Part shown: one piece after another, positions 5,072-30,696 of the stretch | Layout: the number at the start of each line of letters is the position of its first letter | How positions within the stretch are numbered: the first letter of the stretch is position 1 | Made by a program: the position numbers and the translations under genes | Notes under the pieces: model-generated | Told to the model about the DNA's origin: nothing | Database searches by the model: none | The model's input: the letters and a program-made list of their open reading frames with translations, nothing else | Virus record (IMG/VR): IMGVR_UViG_3300036785_000423 | Location: 1 to 44,365 of that record | Strand: one strand, 5' to 3' | DNA length: 44,365 nt | From: a virus

Positions 5072-5914
5072 TTGTCAATCCTGAATGGTCTCCCCGGCGA
5101 GCCTCGGCAGAACCCCGGCGGCCTTCCCGGGCTTGGGCAGTCCCTAGGGGAACTGGCGCGCGCGTGGGCTATGGCCCAGGGGGACTCCGCTGACGCCGCC
5201 ACTCGGGAGCGCCCTGCGGCGACGTCGCTGCTGAACAGCACGCCCGCTACGCCTGCGCCAGAGGCTGCGGCAGCGGCACCGGGGGGCGAGCCGGCACAGA
5301 CGGCGGCCACCACCGTAAAGGGCGTGCCGCCCGACCTGCTGCCGATCTACGCGGCCGCAGCGAAGCGAACCGGCATCCCGGTTGACGTGCTGATCGCCCA
5401 GGCCAAGCAGGAGTCCAACTTCCGCAACGACATCATCGGCAACGCCGGGGAAATCGGGCTGCATCAGATCCTGCCATCGACCGCCCGCAATCCCGGGTTC
5501 GGAATGTCAGGCATCGATCCGGCAACGCTGAAAGACCCTGCCGTCGGCATCAACTTCGCCGCCGACTACCTTAGGGCCAGAGCCGGCCAGGACGCCGATT
5601 TCAGCAATCCCAAGGTGATCGACGCGGCACTGAGGGCATACAACGGCATGGGTCAGGGCGGAGATCCGAACTACGTCGCGAATGTGCGCCGCTATATGCC
5701 GCCCGCGCAGCAGCCGCTCGGTGGGTTGCGCGGGCAGTACGCCTTCAACGACACCGGCATTCTGAATGGCGCCGTCGTCCCGCCGCCGGTCCGTCCACCG
5801 TTGTCACAACTTCCGTCGCCAGCGCAGGAAGCCCCGACAGGCTACACTCTGACGCCTTACGGGCTGGTCCCGACCGCGAGCTGGGATCGCTACATGGCCG
5901 GACGAACCGGATAG
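5072..5914 (+). CDS. SLT-type lytic transglycosylase
   Basis: Residues 85-200 form a soluble-lytic-transglycosylase domain, which cleaves the MurNAc-GlcNAc bond of peptidoglycan. Visible landmarks are the catalytic Glu in QAKQESNF (E114), GEIGLHQILPSTA (126-138, the GLMQ motif) and RAYNGMG (188-194, the AYN motif). The first 80 residues are a low-complexity Pro/Ala/Gly leader without a signal peptide, and about 75 residues follow the domain. The predicted start is TTG at 5072 with AAGGG about 10 nt upstream; no ATG comes earlier in frame. Its place beside internal virion proteins points to a virion-associated enzyme used in DNA entry, although no other endolysin was seen and it could also serve in lysis. 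Confidence 0.85.
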   Translation: MSILNGLPGEPRQNPGGLPGLGQSLGELARAWAMAQGDSADAATRERPAATSLLNSTPATPAPEAAAAAPGGEPAQTAATTVKGVPPDLLPIYAAAAKRTGIPVDVLIAQAKQESNFRNDIIGNAGEIGLHQILPSTARNPGFGMSGIDPATLKDPAVGINFAADYLRARAGQDADFSNPKVIDAALRAYNGMGQGGDPNYVANVRRYMPPAQQPLGGLRGQYAFNDTGILNGAVVPPPVRPPLSQLPSPAQEAPTGYTLTPYGLVPTASWDRYMAGRTG

Positions 5915-5924
5915 GAGCAGCGTG

Positions 5925-7397
5925 ATGGCTGGTTTTAGTTTCCTCAACGGGATCTCCAGCATGGGCGCCGGCATGGCGCAGTTTGCCGGCAACATCGGAT
6001 TGGACATGGAGAAGGCGCAACTGCAACGCCAGAATCTGGCTATGGCCGATCAGCTTTCGCGAGCGCACGAGACGGAAGTGTCGCAGCCGTTCGCGGCCAG
6101 TCAGCTTGCAGCGCAGCAAGCCGGCGCGTTGCAGCGGACACAGATGGAGACCGGCACGCAACAGCAAGTGGCCGGCATACAGGCTGGCTCATCGAAATAC
6201 GCAGCCGATGTTGGGGCCAGAAGTGCCGCTGCGCAGGTTGCTGGCGAGATAGAGCGTACGCGGATGACGCTCGGCGCCGACACGCCGGAAATGAAGATGT
6301 TGCGAGCATTTAACATCCTGCCGGCGACGGGTAATCTGCCGGCTGACACGGCTGCTGCGGGAGGTGGCGGCTCGACGCCCGCCGCGGCCGGCACAGCGAC
6401 CGATGCAGGCGCAGCGCCAGCCGCCGCCGGCACAGCGGCGCCATCCGATATGGACCGCGCACGACAGTCGATTACCAACAAGCTGCTGGGGCTGCCGCAA
6501 CCAGGCTCGGAGGACGCGCTTCGCCGGGGCATTGCCGCAGACGTCGCCGCCGACCCCGCATTCAAGTACAAGACCGCCGGGCAGAAGGGTATCGAGGCCG
6601 AAAAAAGGTTCAATGTAGCCACTGCGAAATCGCTGGCCCCCGAGTCTATAGAGGGGAATGCCTACGCGATTGCAGGTTATCAACAGGCGCCGCTGTCGGG
6701 TTTAGCCAGGAGCAAAGAAGGCGGCAACCAGATTATGTCGCGCGTTATGGAAATCAACCCTGACTATCAGGAATCCCGATACCCGGAAGTCAACAAGGCC
6801 ATGTCTGCATTCGGTGGCGGCGGTAAGGAAGGAGGCATCATCCGATCGCTCAACGTCGGCGTGCAGCACCTGGACGTGCTCGACCAAGCCGCGACTGCAC
6901 TTGGGAACAACGATGTAAGAGCGCTGAATTCCCTGCAAAACATGTTCCAAACTCAGTTCGGCGGTCCTGCCCCGACGACGTTCGACGCCCTGAAGCAGAT
7001 CGTCGGCACCGAGATCGAGAAGGCGATTGCGGGGAACATAGGCTCGGAAGGCGACCGAAAGCGTATAATGGACGGGCTGGATCGCGCGGGCTCGCCCGCC
7101 CAGTTGAAGAGCGTTACGGATGGGTTCCGCGCGCTGATGGTGGGACAACTCGCCGGTCTTAAAACGCAATATGAGGAGGCCACCGACTTCAAGAGCGGCC
7201 CCTTTGCGTTCGAGAACAAGCTGGCCCCGGAGACCAAAGCGAGGCTCCAGGGAAAGCCGCCCCCCGATGGCACTGCCAATGCTCCGCTACCGTTTCCAAA
7301 GTCCGCCGCCGAGGCCGTTGCCGGCAAGTATTACGCGACGCCAGGGCGCGGCACGGCTCGATGGGACGGCGAGAAGTTCATCATGGGGCCGCAGTGA
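5925..7397 (+). CDS. Internal virion protein (490 aa)
   Basis: This is a Gln/Ala-rich helical protein with a Gly/Met start (MAGFSFLNGISSMGAGMAQ), coiled-coil-like residues 25-125, an Ala/Gly linker at about 140-175 and a more ordered C-terminal half. AGGAG lies 7 nt before ATG 5925; a GTG one codon upstream is too close to it. It is followed directly by the 811-residue protein, an arrangement like the ejection-protein pairs of podoviruses. No catalytic motif is seen. Role in the ejection apparatus is inferred. Confidence 0.65.
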   Translation: MAGFSFLNGISSMGAGMAQFAGNIGLDMEKAQLQRQNLAMADQLSRAHETEVSQPFAASQLAAQQAGALQRTQMETGTQQQVAGIQAGSSKYAADVGARSAAAQVAGEIERTRMTLGADTPEMKMLRAFNILPATGNLPADTAAAGGGGSTPAAAGTATDAGAAPAAAGTAAPSDMDRARQSITNKLLGLPQPGSEDALRRGIAADVAADPAFKYKTAGQKGIEAEKRFNVATAKSLAPESIEGNAYAIAGYQQAPLSGLARSKEGGNQIMSRVMEINPDYQESRYPEVNKAMSAFGGGGKEGGIIRSLNVGVQHLDVLDQAATALGNNDVRALNSLQNMFQTQFGGPAPTTFDALKQIVGTEIEKAIAGNIGSEGDRKRIMDGLDRAGSPAQLKSVTDGFRALMVGQLAGLKTQYEEATDFKSGPFAFENKLAPETKARLQGKPPPDGTANAPLPFPKSAAEAVAGKYYATPGRGTARWDGEKFIMGPQ

Positions 7398-9833
7398 ATG
7401 TCCGGTTCATTCTCTTTCGAGGAAGCCGCGAAACCGCCCGCTCCGGTCAGCTTCTCATTTGAGGAAGCCGCGAAAGCGCCGGTGGCGCCGCAGATAAGCT
7501 CGCCGCTGCCATCGTTCCTTGGAGGGGATTTGCCGCCGCAAAAGGCTTTCGGGCTTGCCGATATTCACTCTGGGGAGCCGGCATTCACACCTGACGCCAC
7601 GCCGCCCCCGACCGACACGGCGGCCAAGCCATCCATTTTGAGCGTCGCGGGCATGCGCGAGGCCATGAAGCCCGAGCCGGGGTGGGTGCCCAGCGGCATT
7701 CTTCCGATGGCGACAAAGGAAGTATCGCCGGGTCAGGGAGACCCGTCCGCAGGCATCAAATGGGACATAGGCCCCGTTCGTTCGGTCGTTAATCCGGTCC
7801 TTGATCTGCTGGAGGGCACCGGACAGGCAACCAGCATGGGCGGCCCGAATGCGCCACTGGCAGGCAAAGTCAGCCCGGAGGCGACGGCGCTGATGTTGGG
7901 AATGGCAGCCGGCAACCCAAACCCGTTCGCGTCAGCCGAAAGCATCATGCGGCCACCGTTCACCGGCCCCTCGATTACCGTCAGACCATCTGCCCAGGAT
8001 GCGGTTGCCGCCATCGGGGCAGCGCCCGACGTTGACAGCGCGATTGCCGCGGCAGGCCGAGCGGTATCGGCGCCAATGGCTGCGGCGGACGCCGATCTGC
8101 TCACTCCGCGCGCCGCGCCAGGCGAGGCTGGAGCCGGGTTGGAGGCAGGTCCCGCTAGGGTAGCCGCGGCAGAGCTGGAAAGGCCGCCAGCGGGCGGCCC
8201 GATCACCACTTCTCAAGTGCAGCGGCGCGATGGCGTCGGATACAACGAGGCTGTACGCCGAGCGGCGGCCGAGAATGCTGCCAGCGCTGTGGCCGCCCCT
8301 GAGTCGATCGGCGCCGCTGCATCGCGCGAGGGCACGCCGGCAGCCCAGATCGATCTCTCAACCGCCGACATGAAAGCCAACCGCCGGCGGGCAGAAATGG
8401 ACGATCTCATGCGTCCGCCACAAGCCAACGACGCCAAAATCTACGTCGAGGGCTCCTTCCCGACGCTCGCGGAGCGAAGCGCCGACCCTCTCCTGTCGCA
8501 ATACGAAAACCTGCTGCGCCAGCGCAACCCAGGCGAGTTCGTCGGCGAGGGCAAGCGGCTCACCGAAAACAACAAGGCGCGGGTCAACGAATACGACAAG
8601 AACACGATTCCCGATCCTACCCTAAACACCATGCGGGCGGATCGAACAGCGCGGTGGAACGCCAATGCCGACAATATCCTGCCGACAGCTCAGCCAGCCG
8701 ATTTAACCCCGGCGCTCGATTGGGTGCAGGAGCAGTTGGACAATCCCCGGATTTATGAAAACGACGAGGTGCGCGGTGTGCTGGAGAATTTCCAGGAACG
8801 ACTCCTGGATCAGGATGGCAATCTAAAGACCGATCCTGCCGCCGTATGGGGCATCCACGACAACCTCCAGACTCAGCTCGCCAAGGCAAAAGACCCGTTG
8901 AAGGCGACGAGCGCTGAGAAGTTCGCTGAAGGTCAGTTGCTCACCGCGAAACGGTTGGTCGACGAGGCGATGAATGCCGCGACCGACGGGAGATTCCAGA
9001 AGGCGCTCAACGACTACGCTGAAGACTCAAAGGCGATCAACGCCGGAGTGTTGTTTAACGACTTCCGGCCGAAACTCACCAACATGAGCGGCGAGATCCA
9101 GCCGGCTAACTTCCACCGCTTCGTTGTCAATCTGGCAAAGGAGCGCGGCGACCCAGGCATTGACCCGTCGATGGACATTTCCGATCAGGGAATGCAGTCG
9201 CTCATCAACATCGACGCCGACCTGAAGCGCGCCGGGCTGATCAGGCTTGGCGGCCCTGCCGGCTCGCCGACGAACCTGCTCGGCGCGCTGGCGGAATCTG
9301 CCGGGCTGGACGCCGCACATAAATTGCTCGGATCGGTTCCTGTTGTCGGTAAGGCTTTAAGCGTCGGTCAACAATACTTTGCCCAGCGCAAGATGATCGC
9401 CGACACCGCGAAACACCTTGCCCCGCCCGAGGGTGGCTATATCCCGCCCGATGCCCCGGAACCCCCGCCGGCGCCTATCGTGCGGGCCGCTCCGGCGGCG
9501 GCAGCCGCTGTGCCGCCTGCAGCCGCCCCTGCCTCCATGGCGACGGCCCCGGAGTTGCCGCCAGAGGCTGCTCCCGCCCCAGCTCCGGTCACACGGGACC
9601 GAGCGGCAGTCGCGGCGATGAAGTGGCTGGTGACCTCGCCCCCAGAAGGCACTACGCTCGATCTCCAGGCGGCGCGGCGTATTTTGACCGCAGCTTATGG
9701 GGAACCCTTTGTGGCCAATCTGTCACGGGTGAAGCTGTCGGGGCTTCTGGCGAACTTCGCGGCACAACTGCGGGCCTCCGAATCAGGCGAGATCGGCACT
9801 GATCTGCCTGCCGCAGCTGGGAGAAAGCAATGA
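7398..9833 (+). CDS. Large internal virion protein (811 aa)
   Basis: The protein starts with a duplicated peptide, SFSFEEAAK, at about residues 4-12 and 18-26. A low-complexity Pro/Ala region follows, then a mostly helical body from about 330 to 680 (DDLMRPP..., DWVQEQLDNPRIYENDEVRG..., HDNLQTQLAKAKDP...), then a Pro/Ala-rich linker and a compact 70-residue end. Its size and position after the transglycosylase and the 490-residue protein match the largest ejection protein of T7-like and P22-like phages, but no homologous domain was recognised. The start codon follows the previous stop with no gap, and the end overlaps the next gene by 4 nt. Confidence 0.65.
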   Translation: MSGSFSFEEAAKPPAPVSFSFEEAAKAPVAPQISSPLPSFLGGDLPPQKAFGLADIHSGEPAFTPDATPPPTDTAAKPSILSVAGMREAMKPEPGWVPSGILPMATKEVSPGQGDPSAGIKWDIGPVRSVVNPVLDLLEGTGQATSMGGPNAPLAGKVSPEATALMLGMAAGNPNPFASAESIMRPPFTGPSITVRPSAQDAVAAIGAAPDVDSAIAAAGRAVSAPMAAADADLLTPRAAPGEAGAGLEAGPARVAAAELERPPAGGPITTSQVQRRDGVGYNEAVRRAAAENAASAVAAPESIGAAASREGTPAAQIDLSTADMKANRRRAEMDDLMRPPQANDAKIYVEGSFPTLAERSADPLLSQYENLLRQRNPGEFVGEGKRLTENNKARVNEYDKNTIPDPTLNTMRADRTARWNANADNILPTAQPADLTPALDWVQEQLDNPRIYENDEVRGVLENFQERLLDQDGNLKTDPAAVWGIHDNLQTQLAKAKDPLKATSAEKFAEGQLLTAKRLVDEAMNAATDGRFQKALNDYAEDSKAINAGVLFNDFRPKLTNMSGEIQPANFHRFVVNLAKERGDPGIDPSMDISDQGMQSLINIDADLKRAGLIRLGGPAGSPTNLLGALAESAGLDAAHKLLGSVPVVGKALSVGQQYFAQRKMIADTAKHLAPPEGGYIPPDAPEPPPAPIVRAAPAAAAAVPPAAAPASMATAPELPPEAAPAPAPVTRDRAAVAAMKWLVTSPPEGTTLDLQAARRILTAAYGEPFVANLSRVKLSGLLANFAAQLRASESGEIGTDLPAAAGRKQ

Positions 9834-10033: not shown

Positions 10034-10114
10034 GACCCACCACATCGGCGACGTGACCGACCCGCAACGCGCGGTCGCGACGCCATGCGCAATCGCGCTG
10101 CGGAGCAATTCCCC

Positions 10115-12313
10115 ATGAGCACCATCGCTCCCCTGCCTCCGATCGGTTTGCAAGGTCCATCGACCAATCCATCGGCACCACAAATTTCGCCGTCGGCGCT
10201 ATCGGATGCGATCAATGCCGAAATAACGGCGATGACGAACGCGATCAACGCGGCACTCGGTGGGCTGCAAACCAGCGTCGATGGCGTGCAAAGCAGCGTG
10301 ACCTCGGCTGCCGGGCAAATCGAAAGCAGCCTGACCGCAGCGCAAGCCAGCCTGGCAGCCGACAGCACGGCGCTCACGACCGTACAGACGGGCGTGACGG
10401 CCATTGCAGCGCAGGTGACCGCGATCCAGGCGGCACTTGGCAGCGCTGGGACAAAACCAGCGATCGCCGCGGTGCCTGGCACGAACATCATCAACGTTGT
10501 TGCCGCATATCTGTTCACCAAGACGATCAGCACGCCAGCCACGTTTTCAGTGTCCAATGTCCCGGCCGGCGTGTCGGTTTTCCGGCTAGCGCTGACCAAT
10601 GGCGGCGTGGCTTCCGTGACCTGGTGGAGCGGGCTTGATTGGCCTGGCGGTGTGGTGCCAGGGCTCACTGCCGCGGGCCTCGATCTGCTGGAATTCGCGA
10701 CCTACGACGGCGGCACGACCTGGTTCGGCACTGTGCTCGGCAACGGCATGGCGGCAGTCGGCGGCGGACCGCCGCCACCACCCCCAGGCCTGAGCCCAAG
10801 CCCCGACCCCACGAGCGTGACCACCACCGGCCAAACCATCGTAGACACTGGCCTGAACACCTGGGAGTTGGTTGTCTCTGCCGCCAACGGATTGCAGGTC
10901 GCCGTCAACGGTGTGGTCGACTCAACCACGGCGAACGTTATCCTGCTCTACTGGCACGGCGGCATGATCTACCAGGAGAACAACTGGCCTGCGTGGTGGT
11001 CATGGTCCGGCACGGCCTGGGTTGCCACCTCCGATCCGCGCCCAGCGGCGCCAGCAGGCTCGCACATCTCGGTCTCCCTCACCTCGCCGACGGGCAAGAG
11101 CGTTTCCAAAATGGTGTTCGGCATTTCTTCCGGCGCCAATGCACATGCCAACTTCGACGAACTCATGGGCCGAGCGGGCAGTGGCGAGCACGGCGCCACG
11201 ACTGCAATGCTAACCTCATTGGGTACGATTAAGTTCTCGGTCTGGCGCTGCCACGCATCCGAGGAAGTCGCGCGGCTCTACGCCCAGGGCCAGACCCAGA
11301 TCATGAATGACTGGTGGGGCACGATCGGTCCGGCGATCATGGCGAGCGGATATCGCCTCGTCATGGGGGTTGGGTGGAAAGCGGGCGGGCATTCAGCTGC
11401 CAATGAGGCTGCATGGGCTTCCACATTTGCGCAGGCGATGAAAAACCAGGGGCACGAGATTTTCTACTGGGAGGTCGACAACGAGCCTGGTGGTACTGGC
11501 GCTGACTACGCCGCATGGTTCAATCCCATCGCCGACGCACTGCATAATGTGAATCCTGCTTACAAGGTCGGCGGCACGACTGGTTCATGGTATGGCGCTG
11601 TCGATCTGAGCGGCTTCTTCACGGGTAGCGGATCGCGCGTCGGGTTTGTTTGCTTCCATTCCTATCGGGTTGGTCCGGCGAATTCGAATGATGCTTGCAT
11701 GGCATCGGCTCACGGCTTCGGAGACATCACCAGCGCCAGAAACGCCATGCGGACAGCTGGCTATCCTGACACGATGGAAATCGCGCTTAACGAATACAAC
11801 ATGGACGGCAATCCCGGCGAGGAACCGAGGCAGACCACGCACATCGGCATGCTGTATATCGATCTGTTGCTGACTGCCAGCTACAAGCAAGACCCGATGT
11901 TCACCATGGGCGGTCTGTGGGACATGTATGCAGACGGCAACTACGGTGTCGTTGAAAATAACTTGTTTGGCGGAGATCCCTCCAGAATCACACCGCAAGG
12001 GCAGTTCCTCGGATATGCGGGGAAGAACCTGTATGGTCCAGAGGTGGCTACATCGACGACACTAAGCAACCTGGAACTACTGGCGACCAAGCCCAGCCCG
12101 GGGACGTTCTGCATCAAATTGACGAACTACAGCATGACGACCGACATCACCGACGCGATCACGCTGGTTGGTGGCGCCCCGACTGGCACGATTACCAGAT
12201 GGGAGCTGGGCAATGCCAACCAGCTGAACGCGGCAATCGGGGTGCAGGCCAGCCTTTCCAGCGTCAGCATTCCCAGGGCTTCTACCGTCATGCTCTCTGG
12301 GACTTTCGCGTAG
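10115..12313 (+). CDS. Tail spike with clan GH-A glycoside hydrolase
   Basis: The N-terminal 110 residues are a coiled coil of Ala/Thr/Gln heptads, likely a trimeric stalk. A beta-rich stretch and a Trp/Gly surface module (nt 10793-11046) follow. Residues 325-640 look like a clan GH-A TIM barrel: an acid/base candidate in EVDNEPG (E457) and a nucleophile candidate in ALNEYN (E560), the Asn-Glu-Pro and late Glu arrangement of GH39, GH51 and GH79-type retaining enzymes. A beta-sandwich tail follows. ATG 10115 is preferred over one ten codons upstream because GGAG lies 10 nt before it. It probably cleaves a host surface glycan; the substrate is not readable. Confidence 0.75.
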   Translation: MSTIAPLPPIGLQGPSTNPSAPQISPSALSDAINAEITAMTNAINAALGGLQTSVDGVQSSVTSAAGQIESSLTAAQASLAADSTALTTVQTGVTAIAAQVTAIQAALGSAGTKPAIAAVPGTNIINVVAAYLFTKTISTPATFSVSNVPAGVSVFRLALTNGGVASVTWWSGLDWPGGVVPGLTAAGLDLLEFATYDGGTTWFGTVLGNGMAAVGGGPPPPPPGLSPSPDPTSVTTTGQTIVDTGLNTWELVVSAANGLQVAVNGVVDSTTANVILLYWHGGMIYQENNWPAWWSWSGTAWVATSDPRPAAPAGSHISVSLTSPTGKSVSKMVFGISSGANAHANFDELMGRAGSGEHGATTAMLTSLGTIKFSVWRCHASEEVARLYAQGQTQIMNDWWGTIGPAIMASGYRLVMGVGWKAGGHSAANEAAWASTFAQAMKNQGHEIFYWEVDNEPGGTGADYAAWFNPIADALHNVNPAYKVGGTTGSWYGAVDLSGFFTGSGSRVGFVCFHSYRVGPANSNDACMASAHGFGDITSARNAMRTAGYPDTMEIALNEYNMDGNPGEEPRQTTHIGMLYIDLLLTASYKQDPMFTMGGLWDMYADGNYGVVENNLFGGDPSRITPQGQFLGYAGKNLYGPEVATSTTLSNLELLATKPSPGTFCIKLTNYSMTTDITDAITLVGGAPTGTITRWELGNANQLNAAIGVQASLSSVSIPRASTVMLSGTFA
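10793..11046 (+). repeat. Tail-spike surface module, copy 1
   Basis: This is a roughly 80-residue block with the pattern D-x-G-x-x-x-W-x-[IL]-x3-A, NG, a V-x-L-x-[YW] strand, a G-x-[IL]-Y strand and a W-x3-[DS]DPR end. It is the most diverged of the three DPR-ended copies. Related blocks occur in the two following spike genes. Confidence 0.65.
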
Positions 12314-12351
12314 ATACAATTCCAATTCATCAACAACCAAGTAGGCAGGCC

Positions 12352-12702
12352 GTGACAGACATCAGCTCACAGCTAACTACGGTCGCGGCCAATATCCGCG
12401 ATCTCCAGGCGACCGTCAGGTCGTTACGCGACACTTTCACCAAAAGGATCAATACCATGAGCACAAGCGTAACCGCACAGATCGAAGCCGCCACTGCCCG
12501 CATCCAAAGCGATGTATCAGGACTCTCCAGCGACCTCGATTCAATCAGGACCGAGATTGCTAGCCTCGTCGCCCAGCTCAGTGCCAGCACTCCTCCACCG
12601 CAGGCGACAATCGATGGATTGAATGCACAGGTGGCCGCGCTCGATGCAGTGAAGACAGCGGCCGACGCCGTTGCTACCCCGCCGGCACCAGCGGCAGCGT
12701 AA
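12352..12702 (+). CDS. Small coiled-coil protein between tail spikes
   Basis: This 116-residue protein begins with GTG, preceded by AGGCAGG. It consists almost wholly of Ala/Ser/Thr/Gln heptads (TAQIEAATARIQSDVSGLSSD) ending in a Pro/Ala tail, like the stalk of the preceding spike without its catalytic part. A second plausible start is the ATG at 12457, behind AAAAGGA. It could be an adaptor or trimerisation peptide for a neighbouring spike, or a remnant left when a spike lost its head domain. Function is unproven. Confidence 0.55.
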   Translation: MTDISSQLTTVAANIRDLQATVRSLRDTFTKRINTMSTSVTAQIEAATARIQSDVSGLSSDLDSIRTEIASLVAQLSASTPPPQATIDGLNAQVAALDAVKTAADAVATPPAPAAA

Positions 12703-12725
12703 GACCGTCAGGCGGAGGCGTCGTC

Positions 12726-15700
12726 ATGGCCACACTAGAGACAGACGTGCCGCTGGCTGCAGCGTTCGCCACGTCGGTGGCGACCTACACGGCACAGCGC
12801 ACTGCTCTAAAATCGGCTGTGGCGGCGCTTGTCGCCCAACTGAATTCCACGATCCAGCCACCTCCGCCGGTAACGCACGATCCAAGCCCTGACAAGACTT
12901 CCATCCCTCCCGCGAATACCATTTGGGATGCTGCGGGGCACGCCTGGACCATCGTTGCTGGCGTTGCGACGAGGGACGGCACGCCGGACACTTCCACCTC
13001 GCATGTCAACATGATGCTATGGTGGAGCGGCAGCCTCTATTACATGACCGACACCGGGAGTTGGCGCATTCTGATTGCCTTTGGCAACTGGGCGCCAACG
13101 ACCGATCCAAGGATCGTTCCCCTGTCCCCCGCTCCCGCCGCTGCGGTGGGCTATAATTTGCAGACATTCGGTTCAACCATCGCGTTAGGGACCGACCTGC
13201 GTAAGTTCACTTTCTTCGGCACCGATCCTACTGGCATCACAGCAAACCAGAGCGGCGGCAGTTCAGGGCCGATCGTCATCACCGGCGGCGGCAATAACTA
13301 TGGCGCACAACTTTGCACTGCCAGTTATGACCCGACAGCGAGCGCTGCACATCGGTATATGAGCGGCACGGCCTTTGGTGGGGGCGGCTATTTCGAGGTC
13401 ACGCTGGCAATGCAGACCACGCCGCCATCGACCGCAGGTGCGTCATTCTGGGCAAATGACATCGAGAGCATGGCGGGCGGCTCCTTCGGTGATCAGACGC
13501 TGCGCCAGTGGCCTGGTCAGGCGGCGAATTATGGCGATTGGATCGAGATTGCCGGGACAGAGTTCAACACCGGCACGACCACTAGCTATGGTCTTGGGAT
13601 ACATAACTTTTACGGCTCAGGCACTGCGAGCAATCCTTCAGTTCCGGCGCCGGCTAGCGCAGCTGGTTTCAACACGCAAACCTTCGGGCCGGCAATCACA
13701 CTGGGGTCTGATCCGACGCTGACAACGTTGAATGGAAATGTGCAGAAGTTCAACTTCTTCGGTTGTTCCTGGACCACGATCGGCGTTAACCAGAACGGCG
13801 ATGGCTCCATCTCCATCGTCGGCAACACAGGGAACAACTATGGGGCCGAACTATGTTCAGCGGCCTACCACCCCGGACCATCGCCTTATATAAAAGGCGT
13901 TGCCTTCGGCGGCGGCGGGTATTTCGAGGCCACCATCTCGATGGTAAACCAGCCATCGGCGGCCGGTGCGAGCTTCTGGTTCAATGACATCGAGAGCATG
14001 GCTGGCGGTTCATTCGGCGACCTGACGCTGCGCCAGTGGCCTGGGCAGGCAGTAGGATATGGCAACTGGATCGAGCTGGACGCACCCGAATTCAATACCG
14101 GGAACACGACGCAGTTTGGTCATGGAATACACAACTTCTATGGTGGCGGGACAAACCTCGATACTGGCACGTATCCGGGCTTCGTCTCGCCAGTTACAGC
14201 GCCGGGCGGCACGGACTTTCGCCAGCCCCATCAATATGGGGTGCTTTGGGTGCCGGCTACGGATAGCACGCAGGGTTTTATAACGTGGTATTTCGACCGC
14301 GTGCAGATCGGCCAGACTGTTTTTTGGAATAAGTGGTCTGCCGGGATGACGCCGCCCCCGGTGCAAGGAACGACGGCGTATAGCGTCATCGACACACGCC
14401 ATCTGGCATTCATCCTTGGCAATGGCGATGCGAACAACCTGGTGACGGTCCACTCGGTCGAGGTGTGGCAGGCAACAGCAGCCCACAACATTGGCGCTGC
14501 ATTGGGGACTACCCTAGCCGGTGTTCCAATACCGTCCGGCTGGGAGATGAAGCGTGTCGATACGTTCGGCACGAGTGGCTCGGTGCCTGACCTGACGACA
14601 CTGCACAGTCTTTATGCTGAGGGGCAGTTCTACAACGTAAGCGGCGATCGCGTTTGGATACCGAACACCGTCATCAACAGCGAGCAGCAGACATACTCGC
14701 ATTTCGAAGATGTGATTGCCTTCTCGACAGATCATCTGACCATTCAGGGCAGAGGGCACGTCGGCAACACGATTACCTCTGGCGAGATGGTTAGCAAGTG
14801 GTATGGGCGCAGCTTCATTTTCGAGGTTCGCGCCAAGGCTCCCATATCTTCCGGCTCATGGACTGCGATCTGGGCATATGCACGAGCAGCGGGCGGCGAT
14901 GGGTCCGAGCTGGATGTTGAGATGACGATGGTCATCGGTGACGAGGCGGCGAATAGGCACCGCGTCTATCACTACAATCATCCTGGCCAGAGCAACGTCG
15001 TCATCAGCGACAGCAACTTTACCACCCCGTTCATGATGTATCAAAATGCATCATTCAACGTCGACGCCGCGCATACTTATACAATTGTCTACGACGACGT
15101 GGCGGGGAAAGTCTCGCGATATATCGACGGCACGCTGATCTATAGCGCCGACTTCAAGTGGAACGCCTCGCTAGGCGGCACGGGTCACGGACCGGACGCA
15201 ATCCTGACCATATGCCTTGCAGCCGGCGGCAGCTGGCCGGGGCAGATTGCCACGCCGAGCGCCTATAGCGGTGATCTCGATGTCTACTCGGCAGCCTACT
15301 ATGCACCGACCGCTTGGACGCCACCGCCGCCAGTGGTTACGCCCCAGACATGGGGCGCTCTCAGGGGCTCACACGTTTCGCTGTCGGGAAGTGACCTGAT
15401 CGCCACTGCGGCTGCGGGTGGTGGTGTAGTCTACGGCGCATTGTTCAATACCACCGGCAAGTTCTACTGGGAGGTTATCCTAAACAATAGTGGGAATGTC
15501 GGCGCAGGAATAGGCAGCAACCAGGTACCTGTTGGCGATGCCGAATGGGTTGGCGGTTCAAACAATAGTATAGGATGGTACAACGCCGGGGCTGTTTATA
15601 ACGGCGGGTCACTGAAAGCCACATTCGCATCGTTTGGCAATGGCGCTATTCGCTTGTGTTTTTCTATCGATTTGACTAGCGCGACTAAGAAACTCTGGGG

Positions 15701-15923
15701 ACGTGTAGGTGCCACTGGCAATTGGGACAATGATGTCCTTGCCAATCAAAACCCTGCTACAGGCGCCGGAGGCATCGACCTAAGTACATGCGGCGACACC
15801 CTGTCGTGGCCGGTTACGGCAGGCGCAAGTCTATCGGCTGGTGATACGGCAACGGGCTGCTTCACTTCGGCATCATGGGTTGGCACTGCGCCATCTGGCT
15901 TCACGGCGTTTGTTACATCGTAA
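12726..15923 (+). CDS. Multidomain tail spike with GH16-like folds and SPRY-like domain
   Basis: The domains in order are: a short helical stalk (1-45); a surface module (52-132); a partial jelly roll (140-298); a second, fuller copy (313-590); a third GH16-like domain (about 600-860); and an SPRY-like domain (about 875-1065: GKFYWEV, GNVGAGIGSN, NNSIGWYNAGAVYNGG). GH16 enzymes cleave beta-1,3 or beta-1,4 glucans and galactans using E-x-D-x-E or E-x-D-x-x-E. The third domain has ELDVE (E728, D730, E732). The second copy has ELDAPE. The first copy has EIAGTE, lacking the Asp, so it may be inactive or only bind. GGAGG precedes the ATG. It likely degrades and binds a host exopolysaccharide. Confidence 0.75.
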   Translation: MATLETDVPLAAAFATSVATYTAQRTALKSAVAALVAQLNSTIQPPPPVTHDPSPDKTSIPPANTIWDAAGHAWTIVAGVATRDGTPDTSTSHVNMMLWWSGSLYYMTDTGSWRILIAFGNWAPTTDPRIVPLSPAPAAAVGYNLQTFGSTIALGTDLRKFTFFGTDPTGITANQSGGSSGPIVITGGGNNYGAQLCTASYDPTASAAHRYMSGTAFGGGGYFEVTLAMQTTPPSTAGASFWANDIESMAGGSFGDQTLRQWPGQAANYGDWIEIAGTEFNTGTTTSYGLGIHNFYGSGTASNPSVPAPASAAGFNTQTFGPAITLGSDPTLTTLNGNVQKFNFFGCSWTTIGVNQNGDGSISIVGNTGNNYGAELCSAAYHPGPSPYIKGVAFGGGGYFEATISMVNQPSAAGASFWFNDIESMAGGSFGDLTLRQWPGQAVGYGNWIELDAPEFNTGNTTQFGHGIHNFYGGGTNLDTGTYPGFVSPVTAPGGTDFRQPHQYGVLWVPATDSTQGFITWYFDRVQIGQTVFWNKWSAGMTPPPVQGTTAYSVIDTRHLAFILGNGDANNLVTVHSVEVWQATAAHNIGAALGTTLAGVPIPSGWEMKRVDTFGTSGSVPDLTTLHSLYAEGQFYNVSGDRVWIPNTVINSEQQTYSHFEDVIAFSTDHLTIQGRGHVGNTITSGEMVSKWYGRSFIFEVRAKAPISSGSWTAIWAYARAAGGDGSELDVEMTMVIGDEAANRHRVYHYNHPGQSNVVISDSNFTTPFMMYQNASFNVDAAHTYTIVYDDVAGKVSRYIDGTLIYSADFKWNASLGGTGHGPDAILTICLAAGGSWPGQIATPSAYSGDLDVYSAAYYAPTAWTPPPPVVTPQTWGALRGSHVSLSGSDLIATAAAGGGVVYGALFNTTGKFYWEVILNNSGNVGAGIGSNQVPVGDAEWVGGSNNSIGWYNAGAVYNGGSLKATFASFGNGAIRLCFSIDLTSATKKLWGRVGATGNWDNDVLANQNPATGAGGIDLSTCGDTLSWPVTAGASLSAGDTATGCFTSASWVGTAPSGFTAFVTS
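12879..13122 (+). repeat. Tail-spike surface module, copy 2
   Basis: The block starts DPSPDKTS, has IWDAAGHAWTIVAGVATRDG in its centre and ends TTDPR. It is nearly identical, at DNA level in places, to the copy at 16320-16560. Confidence 0.8.
13147..13620 (+). repeat. Duplicated GH16-like half, copy A
   Basis: This stretch repeats in 13663-14140 with strong nucleotide identity around the segment encoding NDIESMAGGSFGD and LRQWPGQA. The copy stops at HNFYG and lacks the second half of the fold that copy B has. Confidence 0.75.
13663..14500 (+). repeat. Duplicated GH16-like domain, copy B (full)
   Basis: The first part matches 13147-13620. The second part (TDFRQPHQYG through VEVWQATAAHNI) matches the first 350 nt of the next spike gene. 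This is the only copy holding both halves. Confidence 0.75.
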
Positions 15924-15935
15924 GGACGCCTAATC

Positions 15936-18900
15936 ATGGCAGTTCAAGACCTGAACACTGGCGACGCTCTCTGGGCGCCGTTCAGCCCGGTCACCGTGCC
16001 GCCCGGCACGGACTTTCGCCAGCCGCATCAATACGGCTTTCTGTGGGTGCCGGCGACCGCGACGACGCAAGGCTATATGGAGTGGTATTTCGATCGCGTG
16101 AAGATCGGCAAGCGTGTCAGCTGGGATCTCTTCAATCCGGCATTGCCACCCCCTCCTGTAGCGGGCTCATCGGCATTCAGTGTTCTGGATACCAGACACA
16201 TAGCGCTGATCCTCGGTAACGGCGATCCCAACAATCTGGTGACGGTTTCGGCCGTTCAGGTTTGGCAATTGACGGCCGCCAACAATATTACAGACGCGCC
16301 GGTGGTGGTACATGCCCCAAGCCCTGATAACACCACCGTCCAGGCTGGCGGCGGCACCATCTGGGATGCTGGCGGGCACGCATGGACCATTGTGGCCGGC
16401 GTTGCGACGAGGGACGGCGTGGCGGACACTTCCACCTCGAACGTCAACATGCTGCTGTGGTGGGGCGGCGGCCTCTATTACGTCACCAACGCCGCAACAT
16501 GGCGCGTCCTGGTGGCCTTCGGGAACTGGATAGCGACGACCGATCCAAGGGTATTGCCGCCTGCTGCCACGGACATCTCTCTCAGCAACAACACCATCGC
16601 TGCGGGCTCGCCGAGCGGCACAGTTGTCGGCGCTATCGGAGTGACCACGACAGGGACATTCGCCGGGTCCCTGGCGCTATCCGGCACTGATGCCACAAAA
16701 TTCCAAGTCCAGACCAACACCGGCCCCGCACCGTCATTTGACAGCGAGTTTTCTGCTCCACAGCCCTGGATGGCCCATAACGTCTATCAGGCCGGTGATC
16801 CGTGGTCATGGTGCAGTGACGCTTTCCTCCAGGGCGGCCTGGTTCTGCCGGACTTGAAAACGTGGTGGCTGAATCCGACCAATCCCAACACGCAGATGGC
16901 AGGAGTCTATACACTCGCCAACGGCATGCTCAACATGGGCATCCTGCCAAATCCTGGCGGTGCTATCGGTAATTACATCAACAATCAGGCTGGTCAGACG
17001 GTCGACTATGTCGGCGGCATCATCAGCACGCAGCACGCTTTCCGTCCACTATACGGATATTTCGAGTGCTCGGTAGCAATGGACAGGGTTCCTGGGGCTG
17101 GATGCCATGCCGAGATCGAGGATTACCCGGGCCATGACTGGTCGTCGGAGATTGATCTGGAAATCTGGACTGACGGAAGCAACGTCATGCACGCTGCCTT
17201 CGATTATTCCGGATGGGATTCCAATGGTTTCTGGCTCAACAAGGTTTACGAAATCACGACGGCTCAAGGCTTCGACGGGACGGTCCAGCACACCTATGGA
17301 TGGGATTGGCAGTCCGACAAGATCACCTACTATATGGACGACCATCAAGTCGCGCAGGTCAACACGCCGACCGACGGCACATTCAACAACTCGATGTTTT
17401 ACTATTTCCAGACCGCCGCCAGCATGTCCACGGGCGAGAGCGGGTTCGGGGTTTATCCCGACAAGGCTGGCCCTGTTCCCTATGCTCACATCAAGTATCT
17501 GAAATATTGGCCTAGCAAGCCAGCCGCGGGAAGTGGCGGCGGAACAAATCTGATCACCAGTGGTGTGCTCGGGGCCGGCACGGACAATATCAACATCGTG
17601 GCCTCCGCTTCTGGAAAGTCGTCATTCAGCAAGCCGTTTGCCATTACAGTTCAGAGCGCGGCTGCACTGGGGCAGCTCGCATCGTTTGGTGCCAGCGCTT
17701 CGTCTTCGACCTCGATACTGGCCACCTTTGGGTTGCCAACGACTGGCACCATCGACCATGGCGGCGTGCTCGTCCAATACAAGCGCAATGCGGATTCAAC
17801 GTGGCTCGATGGGGTGCGAGGACTTGTCGCCACCATGTCCGGCGGGACCATCACCGATACGCAGGGCAAGACCTGGTCGATCAATGCCGGCGCTCAGATC
17901 GTCTGCAATTCCAATGTAGATATCAACACGGCCAACGCGACCGTCGTTGTTCTCATGCCGGATGGCACCGCATGGCACGTAAACGCCAGCGGGCAGTGGT
18001 ACAGCAAGCCGACGTCGAATGGTTTGTCTTCTGGCGGATGGACAGGTCCGATCGCGTCGCCGTTCACAACGGCCTTTACCATCAGCGGATTGACGGCGAC
18101 CGTGGCTTACAATGTCCGTGGCTACGCCTACAATTCGTCTGGCAATGGTGCGATGTCCAATGTGGTCAATGTTACGACTTCCGCATCGGTGGCCGGCTTT
18201 ACCGTAACGCAAGCCAATGGCATTCGAGACAGCGCCGGCAATCGGTGGGAACTGCGCGGGTATAACTGCTGGTGGGGCGAGTTCAACAACATTAAGGCCA
18301 ACTTGTACTCGAAATTCCCCGGCGCAAATCTCGTGCGTGTGGTGTGCGGTAGGGACACTACCGTAGGCAACATCAGCGGCATGATCAATGAATTGACCGC
18401 GAGGCATGTGATCTGCTTCATCGACTTTCACGATTCGGTCGATGGCAACACGGTCGGGTGGTATCAGACGATGTGCGCCGCGTTCAAGAATAATCCGTAT
18501 TGCTTTATGGAAACGCCAAACGAACCCGGCTCAAATGTTTCTGGAGACCAGATTACAATCATCAACGCGCTGCGTGCTGGAGGGTGGACCAACCCGATCG
18601 GCCTAGAACTACAGTTGGGCTATCAGTTTGACAATATCGGGCCGACCATGGCGTCAATCTCCCAAAATAACCAGATTTTCCTCTGTCCGCATAATTATGG
18701 TGATTGGTGGAACAACAACATGCAGAACAGCGCCAACGCCACTGGTCTATACAGCGTCGTTGACGAGTTCGGCGACGCGATGGATGGTGTCACTATCGAT
18801 GGAAATGGGCCGGATTGCGTGCGGCACATCATTCAGAGCCAACAGAATCACGAATGCGGGGCTGCCGTCTGGTCCGCGACAAACGGCTATCATCAGGGGG

Positions 18901-19760
18901 ACAACCTATTCCTCGACCCGCAGGGGAATACAATCGCCAGCATGGGGCAGATCATGCTCGACATGGGGTGGCTATCCGATGCTGGCGGCATAACGCCGCC
19001 GCCGCCGCCTCCCCCATCAGGTGGATCTGCGCCAGTAGGGTCTGTGTTCTGGGACAATTTCCCCGGCACATCGATCGACACTTCCAAATGGAACCGCGGG
19101 TACTTCTGGCGGCCTGACGGCGGCGGCGGAAGTTCAGGTTGGGACGTCGGCGAGAATCAGATCGGGCCGCACCCTGAATTGGATGTGTTCCCGGTCTCCG
19201 GCAATCAGGTGCAGGTGCAGGTCAAGCCGTCGCCGAACACGTCACTGTCCGGCGGCAATCCGTGGCTCACCGGAAACCTGAATACGCACAAGTCATGCGC
19301 TCGGACGTATGGCTACTGGGAGGTCGACGCCAAGCTCGCGAGAAACCAAGGGCTTCTGAACGCAATCTGGCTGTGGTCTATGGACGAGACCAATTGGCCC
19401 AGCGAGGAAATCGACATTACAGAGACGGCAAGTTCTAGCTGGCCGAATACGATGCGCAGCAATGTGCATGTCCCTGGCGGGGAGAACGTACAGAATCATG
19501 ACAACGGACGGCTAAGCGACGCATTTCATAAGTATGGCGTGGATTGGCAACCCGACACGATCTCATTCTACTTCGATCGAGTGATGTTTAGCTCGGCGCC
19601 GACACCAGCTGCGGTCAAGGGTCCGATGTATCTGATCATTTCGAACTATGTGAATGCCGGTGGCGAGTGGTGGGGAGGCTCCACCGTGCAGGGGGGCGAT
19701 TCCTGGCCTGATGGGATCACCGTTCGGGAAGTCACAGTCTGGCCCACCAGGCCGTTCTGA
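15936..19760 (+). CDS. Giant tail spike with three glycanase domains (GH16, GH5, GH16)
   Basis: The 1274 residues hold, in order: a jelly-roll half homologous to the preceding spike (1-117); a surface module (129-208); a short beta domain; GH16-like domain 1 (about 270-535) with EIDLE (E405, D407, E409); a fibronectin-III-like region (about 575-750) with another surface-module-like insert; a GH5-like TIM barrel (about 755-1015) with TPNEP (acid/base E863) and VVDEFGD (nucleophile E944); a Pro linker; and GH16-like domain 2 (about 1030-1274) with EIDITE (E1158, D1160, E1163). All key residues are present. GH5 enzymes include endo-beta-1,4-glucanases and GH16 includes beta-1,3-glucanases, so a mixed or cellulose-like beta-glucan is a reasonable target. 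AAGGA precedes the ATG. Confidence 0.8.
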   Translation: MAVQDLNTGDALWAPFSPVTVPPGTDFRQPHQYGFLWVPATATTQGYMEWYFDRVKIGKRVSWDLFNPALPPPPVAGSSAFSVLDTRHIALILGNGDPNNLVTVSAVQVWQLTAANNITDAPVVVHAPSPDNTTVQAGGGTIWDAGGHAWTIVAGVATRDGVADTSTSNVNMLLWWGGGLYYVTNAATWRVLVAFGNWIATTDPRVLPPAATDISLSNNTIAAGSPSGTVVGAIGVTTTGTFAGSLALSGTDATKFQVQTNTGPAPSFDSEFSAPQPWMAHNVYQAGDPWSWCSDAFLQGGLVLPDLKTWWLNPTNPNTQMAGVYTLANGMLNMGILPNPGGAIGNYINNQAGQTVDYVGGIISTQHAFRPLYGYFECSVAMDRVPGAGCHAEIEDYPGHDWSSEIDLEIWTDGSNVMHAAFDYSGWDSNGFWLNKVYEITTAQGFDGTVQHTYGWDWQSDKITYYMDDHQVAQVNTPTDGTFNNSMFYYFQTAASMSTGESGFGVYPDKAGPVPYAHIKYLKYWPSKPAAGSGGGTNLITSGVLGAGTDNINIVASASGKSSFSKPFAITVQSAAALGQLASFGASASSSTSILATFGLPTTGTIDHGGVLVQYKRNADSTWLDGVRGLVATMSGGTITDTQGKTWSINAGAQIVCNSNVDINTANATVVVLMPDGTAWHVNASGQWYSKPTSNGLSSGGWTGPIASPFTTAFTISGLTATVAYNVRGYAYNSSGNGAMSNVVNVTTSASVAGFTVTQANGIRDSAGNRWELRGYNCWWGEFNNIKANLYSKFPGANLVRVVCGRDTTVGNISGMINELTARHVICFIDFHDSVDGNTVGWYQTMCAAFKNNPYCFMETPNEPGSNVSGDQITIINALRAGGWTNPIGLELQLGYQFDNIGPTMASISQNNQIFLCPHNYGDWWNNNMQNSANATGLYSVVDEFGDAMDGVTIDGNGPDCVRHIIQSQQNHECGAAVWSATNGYHQGDNLFLDPQGNTIASMGQIMLDMGWLSDAGGITPPPPPPPSGGSAPVGSVFWDNFPGTSIDTSKWNRGYFWRPDGGGGSSGWDVGENQIGPHPELDVFPVSGNQVQVQVKPSPNTSLSGGNPWLTGNLNTHKSCARTYGYWEVDAKLARNQGLLNAIWLWSMDETNWPSEEIDITETASSSWPNTMRSNVHVPGGENVQNHDNGRLSDAFHKYGVDWQPDTISFYFDRVMFSSAPTPAAVKGPMYLIISNYVNAGGEWWGGSTVQGGDSWPDGITVREVTVWPTRPF
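16320..16560 (+). repeat. Tail-spike surface module, copy 3
   Basis: The block encodes SPDNTT..., IWDAGGHAWTIVAGVATRDG and TTDPR. It is closely related in DNA and protein to the copy at 12879-13122. Confidence 0.8.
17853..18045 (+). repeat. Tail-spike surface module, diverged copy 4
   Basis: The spacing of D-x-x-G-x-x-W-x-I-x-A-G, then an NATVVVLMPDG strand and a W-x-V-N-x-S-G-Q-W-Y end, matches the other copies although identity is low. It lies inside the fibronectin-III-like region before the GH5 domain. Confidence 0.5.
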
Positions 19761-26385: not shown

Positions 26386-26684
26386 TCACCGAGGAACAGG
26401 CCGGCATCGTCAAGGGCCTGCTGGCGCGCGGCGAAAAGCAGCACGACATCGCCGCGTTCTTTGGCGTCAACGGCGGGCGTATTGCCGAGATCGCCAAGGG
26501 CAAGAAGTTCCCCGACGTGTCCCCCGCCGCCAAACGCGAACTGCCCACGCCGGCGGTCATGGTGCAGGGCTACGCAGCGCATGTTGCGTTGCAGGCGCTG
26601 CGGATCATCGAGATAGCCGTGCAATCGGCCATTGCCCGCATCGCCGAGCAAATGGGCGCCCCGGACAAGGGGAGCAAGCACTGA
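26382..26684 (+). CDS. Helix-turn-helix protein (100 aa)
   Basis: Residues 1-42 (EEQAGIVKGLLARGEKQHDIAAFFGVNGGRIAEIAKGKK, read in two helices) fit a small homeodomain-like HTH found in many phage and bacterial regulators, with the recognition helix at GGRIAEIAKG. The rest is a hydrophobic helix likely used for dimerisation. GGGGGAA lies upstream of the ATG. The following methyltransferase starts in the stop codon. Confidence 0.65.
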   Translation: MITEEQAGIVKGLLARGEKQHDIAAFFGVNGGRIAEIAKGKKFPDVSPAAKRELPTPAVMVQGYAAHVALQALRIIEIAVQSAIARIAEQMGAPDKGSKH

Positions 26685-27649
26685 TGGCGGGTTCCGCGAA
26701 AGTCGTGGCATTCGGCGACCACGACCGCTGGGTTTCCGACGGATTAGAGTTGGGCGAGCGCGAGCGGTCGTCACATTCCATCATGTGGGACATCGGCGAC
26801 TGGTGGAACCGCGGCGAACCGTACGGGGACCGGGCGCAGATCGTGACAGCGGCGAGTTGGACCGGCCCGAAGCACCAGACCTGCCGCGATGCGGCGTGGG
26901 TCGCTAAGCGGTGGAGAGCGTCTTTGCGCAAAGACACTCTCAGTTTCGAGCATCACAAGGTAGCGGCCAGGATTAAGGACGACAACGAGGCGATTGCACT
27001 GCTCGAATGGTGTCTCGACGCGCCGGAGCCACGCTCGGCGGAAGAGCTACGCGCGCGGATTAAGCAGGTGAGGCGGGCTGACCGCGAGGTTGATCTCGCA
27101 GAGGCGACGGTGGCTGCGTCTGAGGCGCTCGGGAGCAAGCTCTACGGTGTGATTATGGCCGATCCTCCGTGGCGTTTCGCGCCCTACAGCCGCGACACCG
27201 GCATGGACCGCGCTGCAGACAACCACTACCCGACGATGACGATAGAGCGCATCCGTGCGATGGCGGTGCCAGCAGCGGACGATGCCGTGCTGTTCCTGTG
27301 GGCCACTGTGCCGATGCTGCCAGAGGCGCTGTCGGTCATGGCGGCATGGGGGTTTACCTACAAATCCCATTGCGTGTGGGCAAAGGATCGCGTCGGAACC
27401 GGGTATTGGTTCCGAAACCAGCATGAGCTTCTACTGGTCGGCACGCGCGGAAATGTCCCGGCGCCGGCACATGGTGAGCAATATGCATCGGTGATCTCCG
27501 CGCCACTGGGGCGTCATTCGGCCAAACCGAACGCCTTCGCCGAGATGATCGAGGCGATGTTCCCGACGCTGCCGGCGCTGGAGATGTTCGCGCGCGGTCC
27601 GCGCCTCGGATGGACGGTCTGGGGGAACCAGGCTGAGGAGGCCGCATGA
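26684..27649 (+). CDS. MT-A70 family DNA N6-adenine methyltransferase
   Basis: Residues 150-321 are an MT-A70 methyltransferase: the catalytic DPPW motif at 160-163, YPTMTIERIRAM, AVLFLWATVPMLPEAL, FTYKSHCVWAKDRVGTGYWFRNQHELLLVGTRG, and GRHSAKPNAFAEMIEAMFP. The family transfers a methyl group from S-adenosylmethionine to adenine N6. The first 140 residues (SIMWDIGDWWNRGE, KDTLSFEHHKVAARI) resemble a DNA-binding segment found in some phage proteins and may supply specificity. Phages use such enzymes to avoid restriction or to mark replicated DNA. No cognate endonuclease adjoins it, so it is an orphan methylase. Confidence 0.9.
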   Translation: MAGSAKVVAFGDHDRWVSDGLELGERERSSHSIMWDIGDWWNRGEPYGDRAQIVTAASWTGPKHQTCRDAAWVAKRWRASLRKDTLSFEHHKVAARIKDDNEAIALLEWCLDAPEPRSAEELRARIKQVRRADREVDLAEATVAASEALGSKLYGVIMADPPWRFAPYSRDTGMDRAADNHYPTMTIERIRAMAVPAADDAVLFLWATVPMLPEALSVMAAWGFTYKSHCVWAKDRVGTGYWFRNQHELLLVGTRGNVPAPAHGEQYASVISAPLGRHSAKPNAFAEMIEAMFPTLPALEMFARGPRLGWTVWGNQAEEAA

Positions 27650-28078: not shown

Positions 28079-28263
28079 CAATCAGCAAGGCCGCCATCGA
28101 GGAGCGCACCAGGTTGATCGAGGATGCCATCGATCTGCTGCATGAGCTGCGCGGCTTTCCCGAACTACCAGACATCGAGGGGCGGATCACCGAGCGTGGC
28201 TCCCGCACATTGGATCGGATCGCCGATGGGTTCGACAAACTCATCGGTGCGCTTGAAAAATGA
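28075..28263 (+). CDS. Small helical protein, GTG start
   Basis: This 62-residue protein is predicted as two helices (IEERTRLIEDAIDLLHELRG and RTLDRIADGFDKLIGALEK) with a PELPD turn. GTGA upstream and ATGA downstream overlaps couple it into the operon. No family was recognised. Confidence 0.6.
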   Translation: MTISKAAIEERTRLIEDAIDLLHELRGFPELPDIEGRITERGSRTLDRIADGFDKLIGALEK

Positions 28264-29753: not shown

Positions 29754-29754
29754 G

Positions 29755-30696
29755 ATGGGCGCCCCGCACGTCAAGCGCACGACCGCACTGGACATGCAAT
29801 TCGCCGCGCTATGGCGCGCTGGTGCGCCATACGACGCAATCCAAGCCACGATGGACATCTCGCGCTGGACGCTGATGAAATGGCGGAAAGAGCTGGACCT
29901 GATGCCGCGGTTTTCTGGGTGGCTCGTCCGTCCGCGGGAAGCTATCGAGCGCGATCGGCAACTCGCGCAGCTCTGGGACGAAGGGCATTCGACCGCCGAG
30001 ATTGGCCGCCGCATGGGCATCAGCAAGAACGCCGTGATCGGTCGGGCGCGCCGGCTCGACCTGCCAGCGCGGCCCTCGCCGATCAAGCGGGATGGCTACT
30101 GCCCGCCGCGGATCAAGCGAGCGCCCAGGGTCACGCTGGCGAATGAATACCACGGTGGGGCAGGGGGGCCGTGCTCGTCCGGGATGATGCCGGACCACCC
30201 GAAGGCCACCCAGGGGGAGCAAGAGGGCCGCTGGCGCCTCCCCCCGACGCAGCCGGGTTCTGCCGCACCGGCTGCACCTACGCCGAATGACCTGCCGGAC
30301 TCCACAGGGGGCCCCTGTGCCAGTGACAGGTATCGCGTTCCAACGTCCGGTCAGACGGAGCGCGCAGAAGCGGAGAGCGGTCAGAATCGCGGTACGGCCA
30401 CGCCAGCAGCTCCGCAGGTGGCCACACAAAGAAAACCGCCGCCGTCCCCATCCGAGGGATCAGCGGCGGCTGTCGGCCAGGGCGCGCTGCCACCCGTGCC
30501 CCAGCGTATAGTCCCATCGCTGCCGCGCGCCAAGTCCTGCATCTGGACGACGGGGAGCCGCGGCGCCTGGGTGTGCTGCGAGGCGCCGGCGCTGCGGGGC
30601 TCGCTGTTCTGCCTCGAGCACCATCAGCGCGGCACGGTCGGCGACGTTGCCGCCTCCCATCGCGCGGCTGCGCATCGGGCGGGGGCGGCAGCATGA
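29755..30696 (+). CDS. GcrA-like cell-cycle regulator with duplicated HTH
   Basis: Residues 66-110 match the GcrA N-terminus: LAQLWDEGHSTAEIGRRMGI followed by SKNAVIGRARRLDLPARPSP. The last 52 residues contain the other conserved GcrA part, CIWTTG...CCEAPALRGSLFCLEHH (about 262-291). GcrA of Caulobacter and relatives binds sigma-70 and promotes transcription at promoters methylated in GANTC by CcrM. Here a second, diverged HTH precedes the first (residues 12-50), and a Pro/Ser/Gly linker of about 150 residues, rich in TGGPC-type motifs, stretches the protein to 313 residues against about 170 in the host family. Confidence 0.75.
   Translation: MGAPHVKRTTALDMQFAALWRAGAPYDAIQATMDISRWTLMKWRKELDLMPRFSGWLVRPREAIERDRQLAQLWDEGHSTAEIGRRMGISKNAVIGRARRLDLPARPSPIKRDGYCPPRIKRAPRVTLANEYHGGAGGPCSSGMMPDHPKATQGEQEGRWRLPPTQPGSAAPAAPTPNDLPDSTGGPCASDRYRVPTSGQTERAEAESGQNRGTATPAAPQVATQRKPPPSPSEGSAAAVGQGALPPVPQRIVPSLPRAKSCIWTTGSRGAWVCCEAPALRGSLFCLEHHQRGTVGDVAASHRAAAHRAGAAA

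Follow-up and report, generated by a model that had tools for sequence, protein, structure and literature searches.

Predicted glycanase spikes of host-type enzymes in a short-tailed, probably alphaproteobacterial virus

Enzyme-armed tailspikes are already known as a kind, and the products of the three spike genes described here, S1, S2 and S3, would be a variant of them. Klebsiella and other capsule depolymerases are mostly beta-helix lyases or hydrolases, and the spikes of phage CBA120 are beta-helix proteins. In Erwinia amylovora phage S6, cellulose is the needed first receptor and gp095, a member of glycoside hydrolase family 5 (GH5), degrades a carboxymethylcellulose-type model substrate, which shows that GH5 cellulases of phages can have a role in adsorption (PMC9544554). 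Among bacteria, the rhizobial (Sinorhizobium) enzymes ExoK and ExsH cleave the succinoglycan of their own producer (PMC4916376). In the one review searched, GH16 occurs in the reference list only (PMC11652154). S1-S3 are encoded in IMG/VR virus record IMGVR_UViG_3300036785_000423, of which positions 1 to 44,365 were analyzed (44,365 nt, hereafter the window). We propose, with a probability of roughly 0.75, that they serve as adsorption spikes for a short-tailed phage whose host is an alphaproteobacterium, probably one of the Acetobacteraceae, and together form a multi-enzyme exopolysaccharide depolymerase built of host-type glycanases.

Enzyme domains and catalytic residues

A preliminary description of the window had assigned more than a fifth of it to three large spike genes, which proved correct: S1-S3 are consecutive plus-strand open reading frames (ORFs) among the late genes, and their block of approximately 9.6 kb (10115-19760) makes up 21.7% of the window (Table 1). 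The window is a linear, incomplete virus record, with a portal gene truncated at its end and no capsid gene found, and in the complete genome the block would take up a smaller fraction. The domain inventory given at that stage also held. In total the spikes contain four complete GH16 domains (C, D, E and, by profile comparison, B), one split GH16, one GH5, one divergent clan GH-A domain and one weak SPRY-like domain. In line with that description, catalytic Glu pairs are intact in 6/6 complete enzyme domains, and the GH-A, GH16 and GH5 domains are predicted to be retaining-type glycosidases with two catalytic Glu each.

Domains were scanned in isolation against Pfam, with cut-offs of 22 bits for GH16 (PF00722), 23.5 for GH5 (PF00150), 26 for GH39 and 26.3 for SPRY. 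GH16-C, D and E passed the cut-off (27.3-66.8 bits) and carry the ExD(x)xE motif. The GH5 domain scored 36.5 bits, with E863 and E944 as catalytic Glu, and its eight canonical residues are invariant among three viral proteins (S3 and those of two other viral contigs). GH16-B had no Pfam match; a profile of four GH16-B sequences nevertheless aligned to the GH16-E profile with 95% probability (E 3.8e-8) and with the ExDxxE motifs in register, compared with less than 1% for control GH5 and GH-A profiles, and the E-D-E residues are invariant across the GH16-B family. The SPRY-like domain fell under the Pfam cut-off (E 0.0043, 17.6 bits). So did the S1 GH-A domain with the GH39 profile (E 0.02-0.05, 14.1 bits), as did its Acetobacteraceae homologue G490:C87 (E 1.3e-4, 21.4 bits). 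The homologue shares 31% identity with the S1 domain (E 1e-35) and keeps both catalytic Glu, and the two-Glu pattern of clan GH-A is present despite the low profile scores. An alignment of S1 and the G490 homologue found no viral relative. A specificity for beta-1,3/1,4-glycans, as had been proposed, is a reasonable prediction: the nearest NCBIfam models of GH16-D and GH16-E are the endo-1,3-1,4-beta-glycanases EglC, BglS and ExoK, all of them matched far under their equivalog cut-offs (for GH16-E, 87.7 of 700 bits with EglC and 21.5 of 350 bits with ExoK).

In S1, a coil and a tail-fibre-like region (residues ~80-212; phrog_7760 3e-6, phrog_9017 1e-6) precede a spacer module (~220-320) and the GH-A domain (~325-732). 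Residues are counted from the Met codon at 10115, which fits better as a start than the upstream ATG at 10085 chosen by automatic ORF calling; the family scans counted from that ATG, and their S1 residue numbers are 10 higher. S2 comprises a module (47-139), the GH16 half A (142-300), GH16-B (~306-591), GH16-C (~600-868) and the SPRY-like domain (872-1063). S3 begins with the GH16 half A' (17-118), followed by a module (122-211), GH16-D (~255-545), an fn3-like region, a degenerate module (~625-710), GH5 (~750-1015) and GH16-E (1040-1274).

The spacer module, of approximately 80 residues, joins the enzyme domains. No convincing Pfam or NCBIfam match was found for it (L061-L064 and L066-L068 included). 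A search with the module alignment found one genome locus, from an uncultured Rhodopila (Acetobacteraceae), a genome that holds 17 copies. Among the Acetobacteraceae proteins then fetched for the module, four pair it with GH5 and another with CBM60, and GH5 occurs with two or three modules within single proteins; it may be a new carbohydrate-associated module. The C-termini of these bacterial proteins resemble type I secretion beta-rolls by eye. Unlike them, S1-S3 showed neither a secretion signal nor a beta-roll on the same kind of inspection.

Table 1. Features of the spike block and related genes in the window.
Feature	Position (nt)	Strand	Content or evidence
Spike S1, 732 aa	10115-12313	+	coil, tail-fibre-like domain, spacer module, clan GH-A (GH39-like) domain
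S1 GH-A domain	11087-12313	+	acid/base E457 (WEVDNEP, nt 11483-11485), H515, nucleophile E560 (LNEYN, nt 11792-11794)
Spike S2, 1065 aa	12726-15923	+	short helix, spacer module, GH16 half A, GH16-B, GH16-C, SPRY-like
S2 orphan GH16 N-terminal half (A)	13149-13625	+	motif EIAGTE
S2 GH16-B	13641-14498	+	motif ELDAPE (E450, E455)
S2 GH16-C	14508-15335	+	motif ELDVE (E728, E732); Pfam GH16 1.1e-6, over cut-off
S2 SPRY-like C-terminal domain	15327-15923	+	phrog_10080 3e-6; Burkholderia phage FLC9 match
Spike S3, 1274 aa	15936-19760	+	GH16 half A', module, GH16-D, fn3-like, degenerate module, GH5, GH16-E
S3 orphan GH16 C-terminal half (A'), at extreme N-terminus	15936-16289	+	68% identical to GH16-B C-half over 102 aa
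S3 GH16-D	16698-17570	+	motif EIDLE (E405, E409); Pfam GH16 3e-7; NCBIfam EglC 5e-13
S3 GH5	18183-18980	+	R801, H832, N862, E863, H919, Y921, E944, W979; Pfam Cellulase 4.8e-9
S3 GH16-E	19053-19760	+	motif EIDITE (E1158, E1163); Pfam GH16 2e-18; NCBIfam EglC 8e-25
Spacer module copies	S1 ~10772-11074; S2 12864-13142; S3 16299-16568; degenerate, S3 ~17808-18065	+	alignment
Transglycosylase SLT protein	5072-5914	+	Pfam SLT 8e-13; PHROG internal virion/lytic tail proteins
Two large proteins, ejection (internal virion) protein position	5922-7397, 7398-9833	+	order only
Small coil protein, 81 aa, between S1 and S2	12457-12702	+	ORF with AAGGA-type site
GcrA homologue	29662-30696	+	Pfam GcrA 9e-13, over cut-off

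Gene context and bacterial relatives

The window is podovirus-like, and the tail-spike setting suggested for S1-S3 was borne out in that they come after ejection-protein-like genes and S1 has its tail-fibre-like region. A late-structural assignment is supported by both placement and a tail-type domain for S1, and by position only for S2 and S3. The two large proteins upstream of S1 had no family match, and gene order points to an ejection role for them. Each spike gene is preceded by a purine-rich ribosome-binding-like site. The small coil protein encoded between S1 and S2, which had no family match, is a possible adaptor.

The phage encodes a GcrA homologue, which supports the alphaproteobacterial host proposed at the outset, and relatives of the spike domains suggest that the host family is probably the Acetobacteraceae. 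We searched a family sample of 150 Acetobacteraceae genomes and an even, class-wide sample of 385 genomes containing few Acetobacteraceae. Within the family sample, S1 had matches in 6 genomes (several of them to the module only), S2 in 2 and S3 in 22. Most of the S3 matches cover GH16-E, and others the module, GH5 or GH16-A'. Class-wide, the module was found in one genome (G001, the centre genome of the sample), S1 in four, with no GH-A match better than 1e-9, and S2, weakly, in one. GH16-B has two Acetobacteraceae copies of 40-41% identity; these came from a later genome search, an alignment of the domain having given no match to the genome contigs.

Relatives of the GH-A, GH16-B, GH16-E, GH5 and spacer module regions thus exist in Acetobacteraceae, several of them beside exopolysaccharide genes. 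Those of GH16-B adjoin epimerase, Wzz/Wzc-like and glycosyltransferase genes, and those of GH16-E have GH5 genes in their vicinity, as well as genes that look polymerase/ligase-like by eye but gave no Pfam match. Such neighbors favor a heteropolysaccharide as the exopolysaccharide concerned. The preliminary description had offered a cellulose-forming host as an attractive guess, which our results do not support: cellulose synthase CelA was over cut-off in 50/150 Acetobacteraceae genomes and in only one of the six with module or GH-A relatives (present in G402; no match in G001, G411, G435, G481 or G490), a small sample of possibly incomplete assemblies.

Two DNA methyltransferase genes (26684-27649 and 28260-29753) lie close to the GcrA gene; GcrA and methylation are linked in alphaproteobacteria. 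Elsewhere in the window are a stand-alone DnaA C-terminal DNA-binding domain (31566-31904; Pfam Bac_DnaA_C 2e-22) and a 349-aa phage ORF with a NusG-like domain (33753-34802; Pfam NusG 1e-15). Between the terminase and portal genes, 38761-40209 encodes a GNAT acetyltransferase domain with a C-terminal half that received no assignment. Near the contig start, the product of 931-2016 has a PHROG hydrolase-like N-terminus, sulfotransferase-like by eye, and an acetyltransferase-like C-terminus.

Alternative explanations and the split GH16 domain

We interpret the domains, their conserved catalytic residues, the gene context and the Acetobacteraceae relatives as follows. The coil and the tail-fibre-like region of S1 would connect it to the virion. 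The spacer modules would hold glycan and may also bind it, and by cleaving the host's extracellular polysaccharide at several beta-linkages, the GH-A, GH16 and GH5 domains would let the particle reach the outer membrane. The sequences suggest a virus that bores through a slime coat using the host's own type of enzyme, related to glycanases that such bacteria encode themselves, as rhizobia do with ExoK and ExsH to trim succinoglycan. Several points weigh against this. A recognizable tail-fibre domain was found in S1 only, and incorporation of the spikes into the virion is inferred. AlphaFold gave no confident structure for S1 residues 215-732 predicted alone (mean pLDDT 36) or for GH16-B (four rows; 31), and the fold assignments are accordingly based on sequence profiles. 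The choice of Acetobacteraceae for the search followed from a single module match, and the class-wide control held few members of that family and covered the module, S1 and S2. Moreover, GH16 relatives of S3 occur on rhizobial plasmids as well, and with no more than 31-41% identity to the enzyme relatives, the phage may have a different host.

Related architectures occur in other viral contigs. In L010 (the same stretch as L011), a single protein of 1619 aa combines an esterase-like region with a full GH16-B, two modules and GH5. In L012, a protein of 1598 aa, encoded after a baseplate wedge gene, has a module, GH5, fn3, GH16-D and also an esterase-like region. Where compared, the neighboring genes are unrelated to those of the window, and the toolkit therefore recurs in unrelated viral contigs. 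Single-sequence searches of viral contigs found no full-length relatives of S1, S2 or S3; among phage records S3 had no match and S1 and S2 had short matches only. Other candidates were set aside: L016 resembles a plasmid or conjugative element more than it does a phage, a relationship of the S1 GH-A domain to the GH-A-like end of L012 was rejected when hhalign showed no relation, and Acetobacter phage phiAX1 and Ochrobactrum phage OH share likeness with the window in terminase only.

Glycoside hydrolases of soil viruses, among them an active GH5 endomannanase, have been interpreted as auxiliary metabolic genes (PMC6786970), and the families concerned here also act on plant glucans. That S1-S3 are such genes for plant or soil carbon breakdown, and not virion parts, is nevertheless quite improbable given their place among late structural genes, where they follow those of ejection type, the tail-fibre-like domain of S1, the similar L012 protein that follows a baseplate gene in an unrelated contig, and the several bacterial relatives in exopolysaccharide loci. 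The spikes might alternatively be mainly lectin-like, with some GH16 domains only binding while one or two enzymes cut. The orphan half A, which lacks the middle Asp of the motif, is compatible with this, as is the GH16-D relative of L012 (5904-6710), in which Arg replaces the second Glu (EIDLR) and which is probably inactive judging from that change. Both catalytic Glu are kept, however, in all four complete GH16 domains, GH5 and GH-A, and we consider a mainly lectin-like role unlikely.

The split GH16 domain is a side question, either answer to which is compatible with S1-S3 being adsorption spikes. Halves A and A' are exactly complementary: in the intact GH16-B relative of L010, S2 residues 135-303 align up to nt 7559 and S3 from residue 5 onward aligns from nt 7560. 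The simplest reading is that halves of one domain are now separated by a cassette (GH16-B, GH16-C, SPRY, a stop and a new start). Half A has lost the Asp that separates the two Glu and has A276 in its place, leaving the split domain, across two genes, with no complete catalytic motif. This loss, together with metagenomic assembly of repeated modules, would fit a genomic or assembly accident without function. Misassembly is an unlikely cause of the split, the longest exact repeat in the spike block being only 21 nt and the repeat copies 74-82% identical. S3 also has its own start and ribosome-binding-like site, and the halves are equally diverged from GH16-B (N-half, S2 142-300: 66% identical, dS 1.58, dN/dS 0.18; C-half, S3 17-118: 68% identical, dS 1.85, dN/dS 0.14), although some of this divergence may predate the split. 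We give a functionless accident slightly less than an even chance. It is also conceivable, if doubtful, that an ancestral GH16 was broken by the GH16-B/GH16-C/SPRY insertion and that its halves refold between the two proteins, possibly inactive, attaching S3 to S2. Docking of this kind is attractive in that S3 has no other recognizable anchor, and the split domain offers a directly testable case of possible docking by domain complementation.

Comparison with known systems

If S1-S3 are adsorption spikes as proposed, the virus carries enzymes resembling those of its probable host family, and the spike enzymes report on the chemistry of an uncharacterized exopolysaccharide. There is also a warning for soil virology, where GH5 and GH16 genes carried by viral contigs are at times classed as auxiliary genes of the carbon cycle; here their setting is that of adsorption spikes.

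As spike-borne enzymes that would strip surface polysaccharide, S1-S3 resemble Klebsiella and other capsule depolymerases. Like CBA120, whose TSP1-4 differ in specificity and dock to each other via their N-terminal regions (PMC8825819), this virus would carry several spikes per particle; unlike TSP1-4, its spikes have other anchors and bear GH16, GH5 and GH-A domains on modular linkers, with docking only hypothesized. Through their nearest models GH16-D and GH16-E resemble EglC, BglS and ExoK, with bit scores far under the equivalog cut-offs; in contrast, the Sinorhizobium glycanases ExoK, ExsH and EglC are bacterial enzymes and not virion parts. The phage S6 (Schitoviridae) cellulases gp094 and gp095 provide a parallel in that a phage GH5-family enzyme is involved, that of S6 degrading a beta-glucan exopolysaccharide receptor (PMC9544554). 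In contrast to S6, with its gammaproteobacterial host, cellulose target and two enzymes, the spikes described here combine GH16 (four domains) with GH5 and GH-A (one each), and point to a host family in which most genomes with the toolkit are without cellulose synthase.

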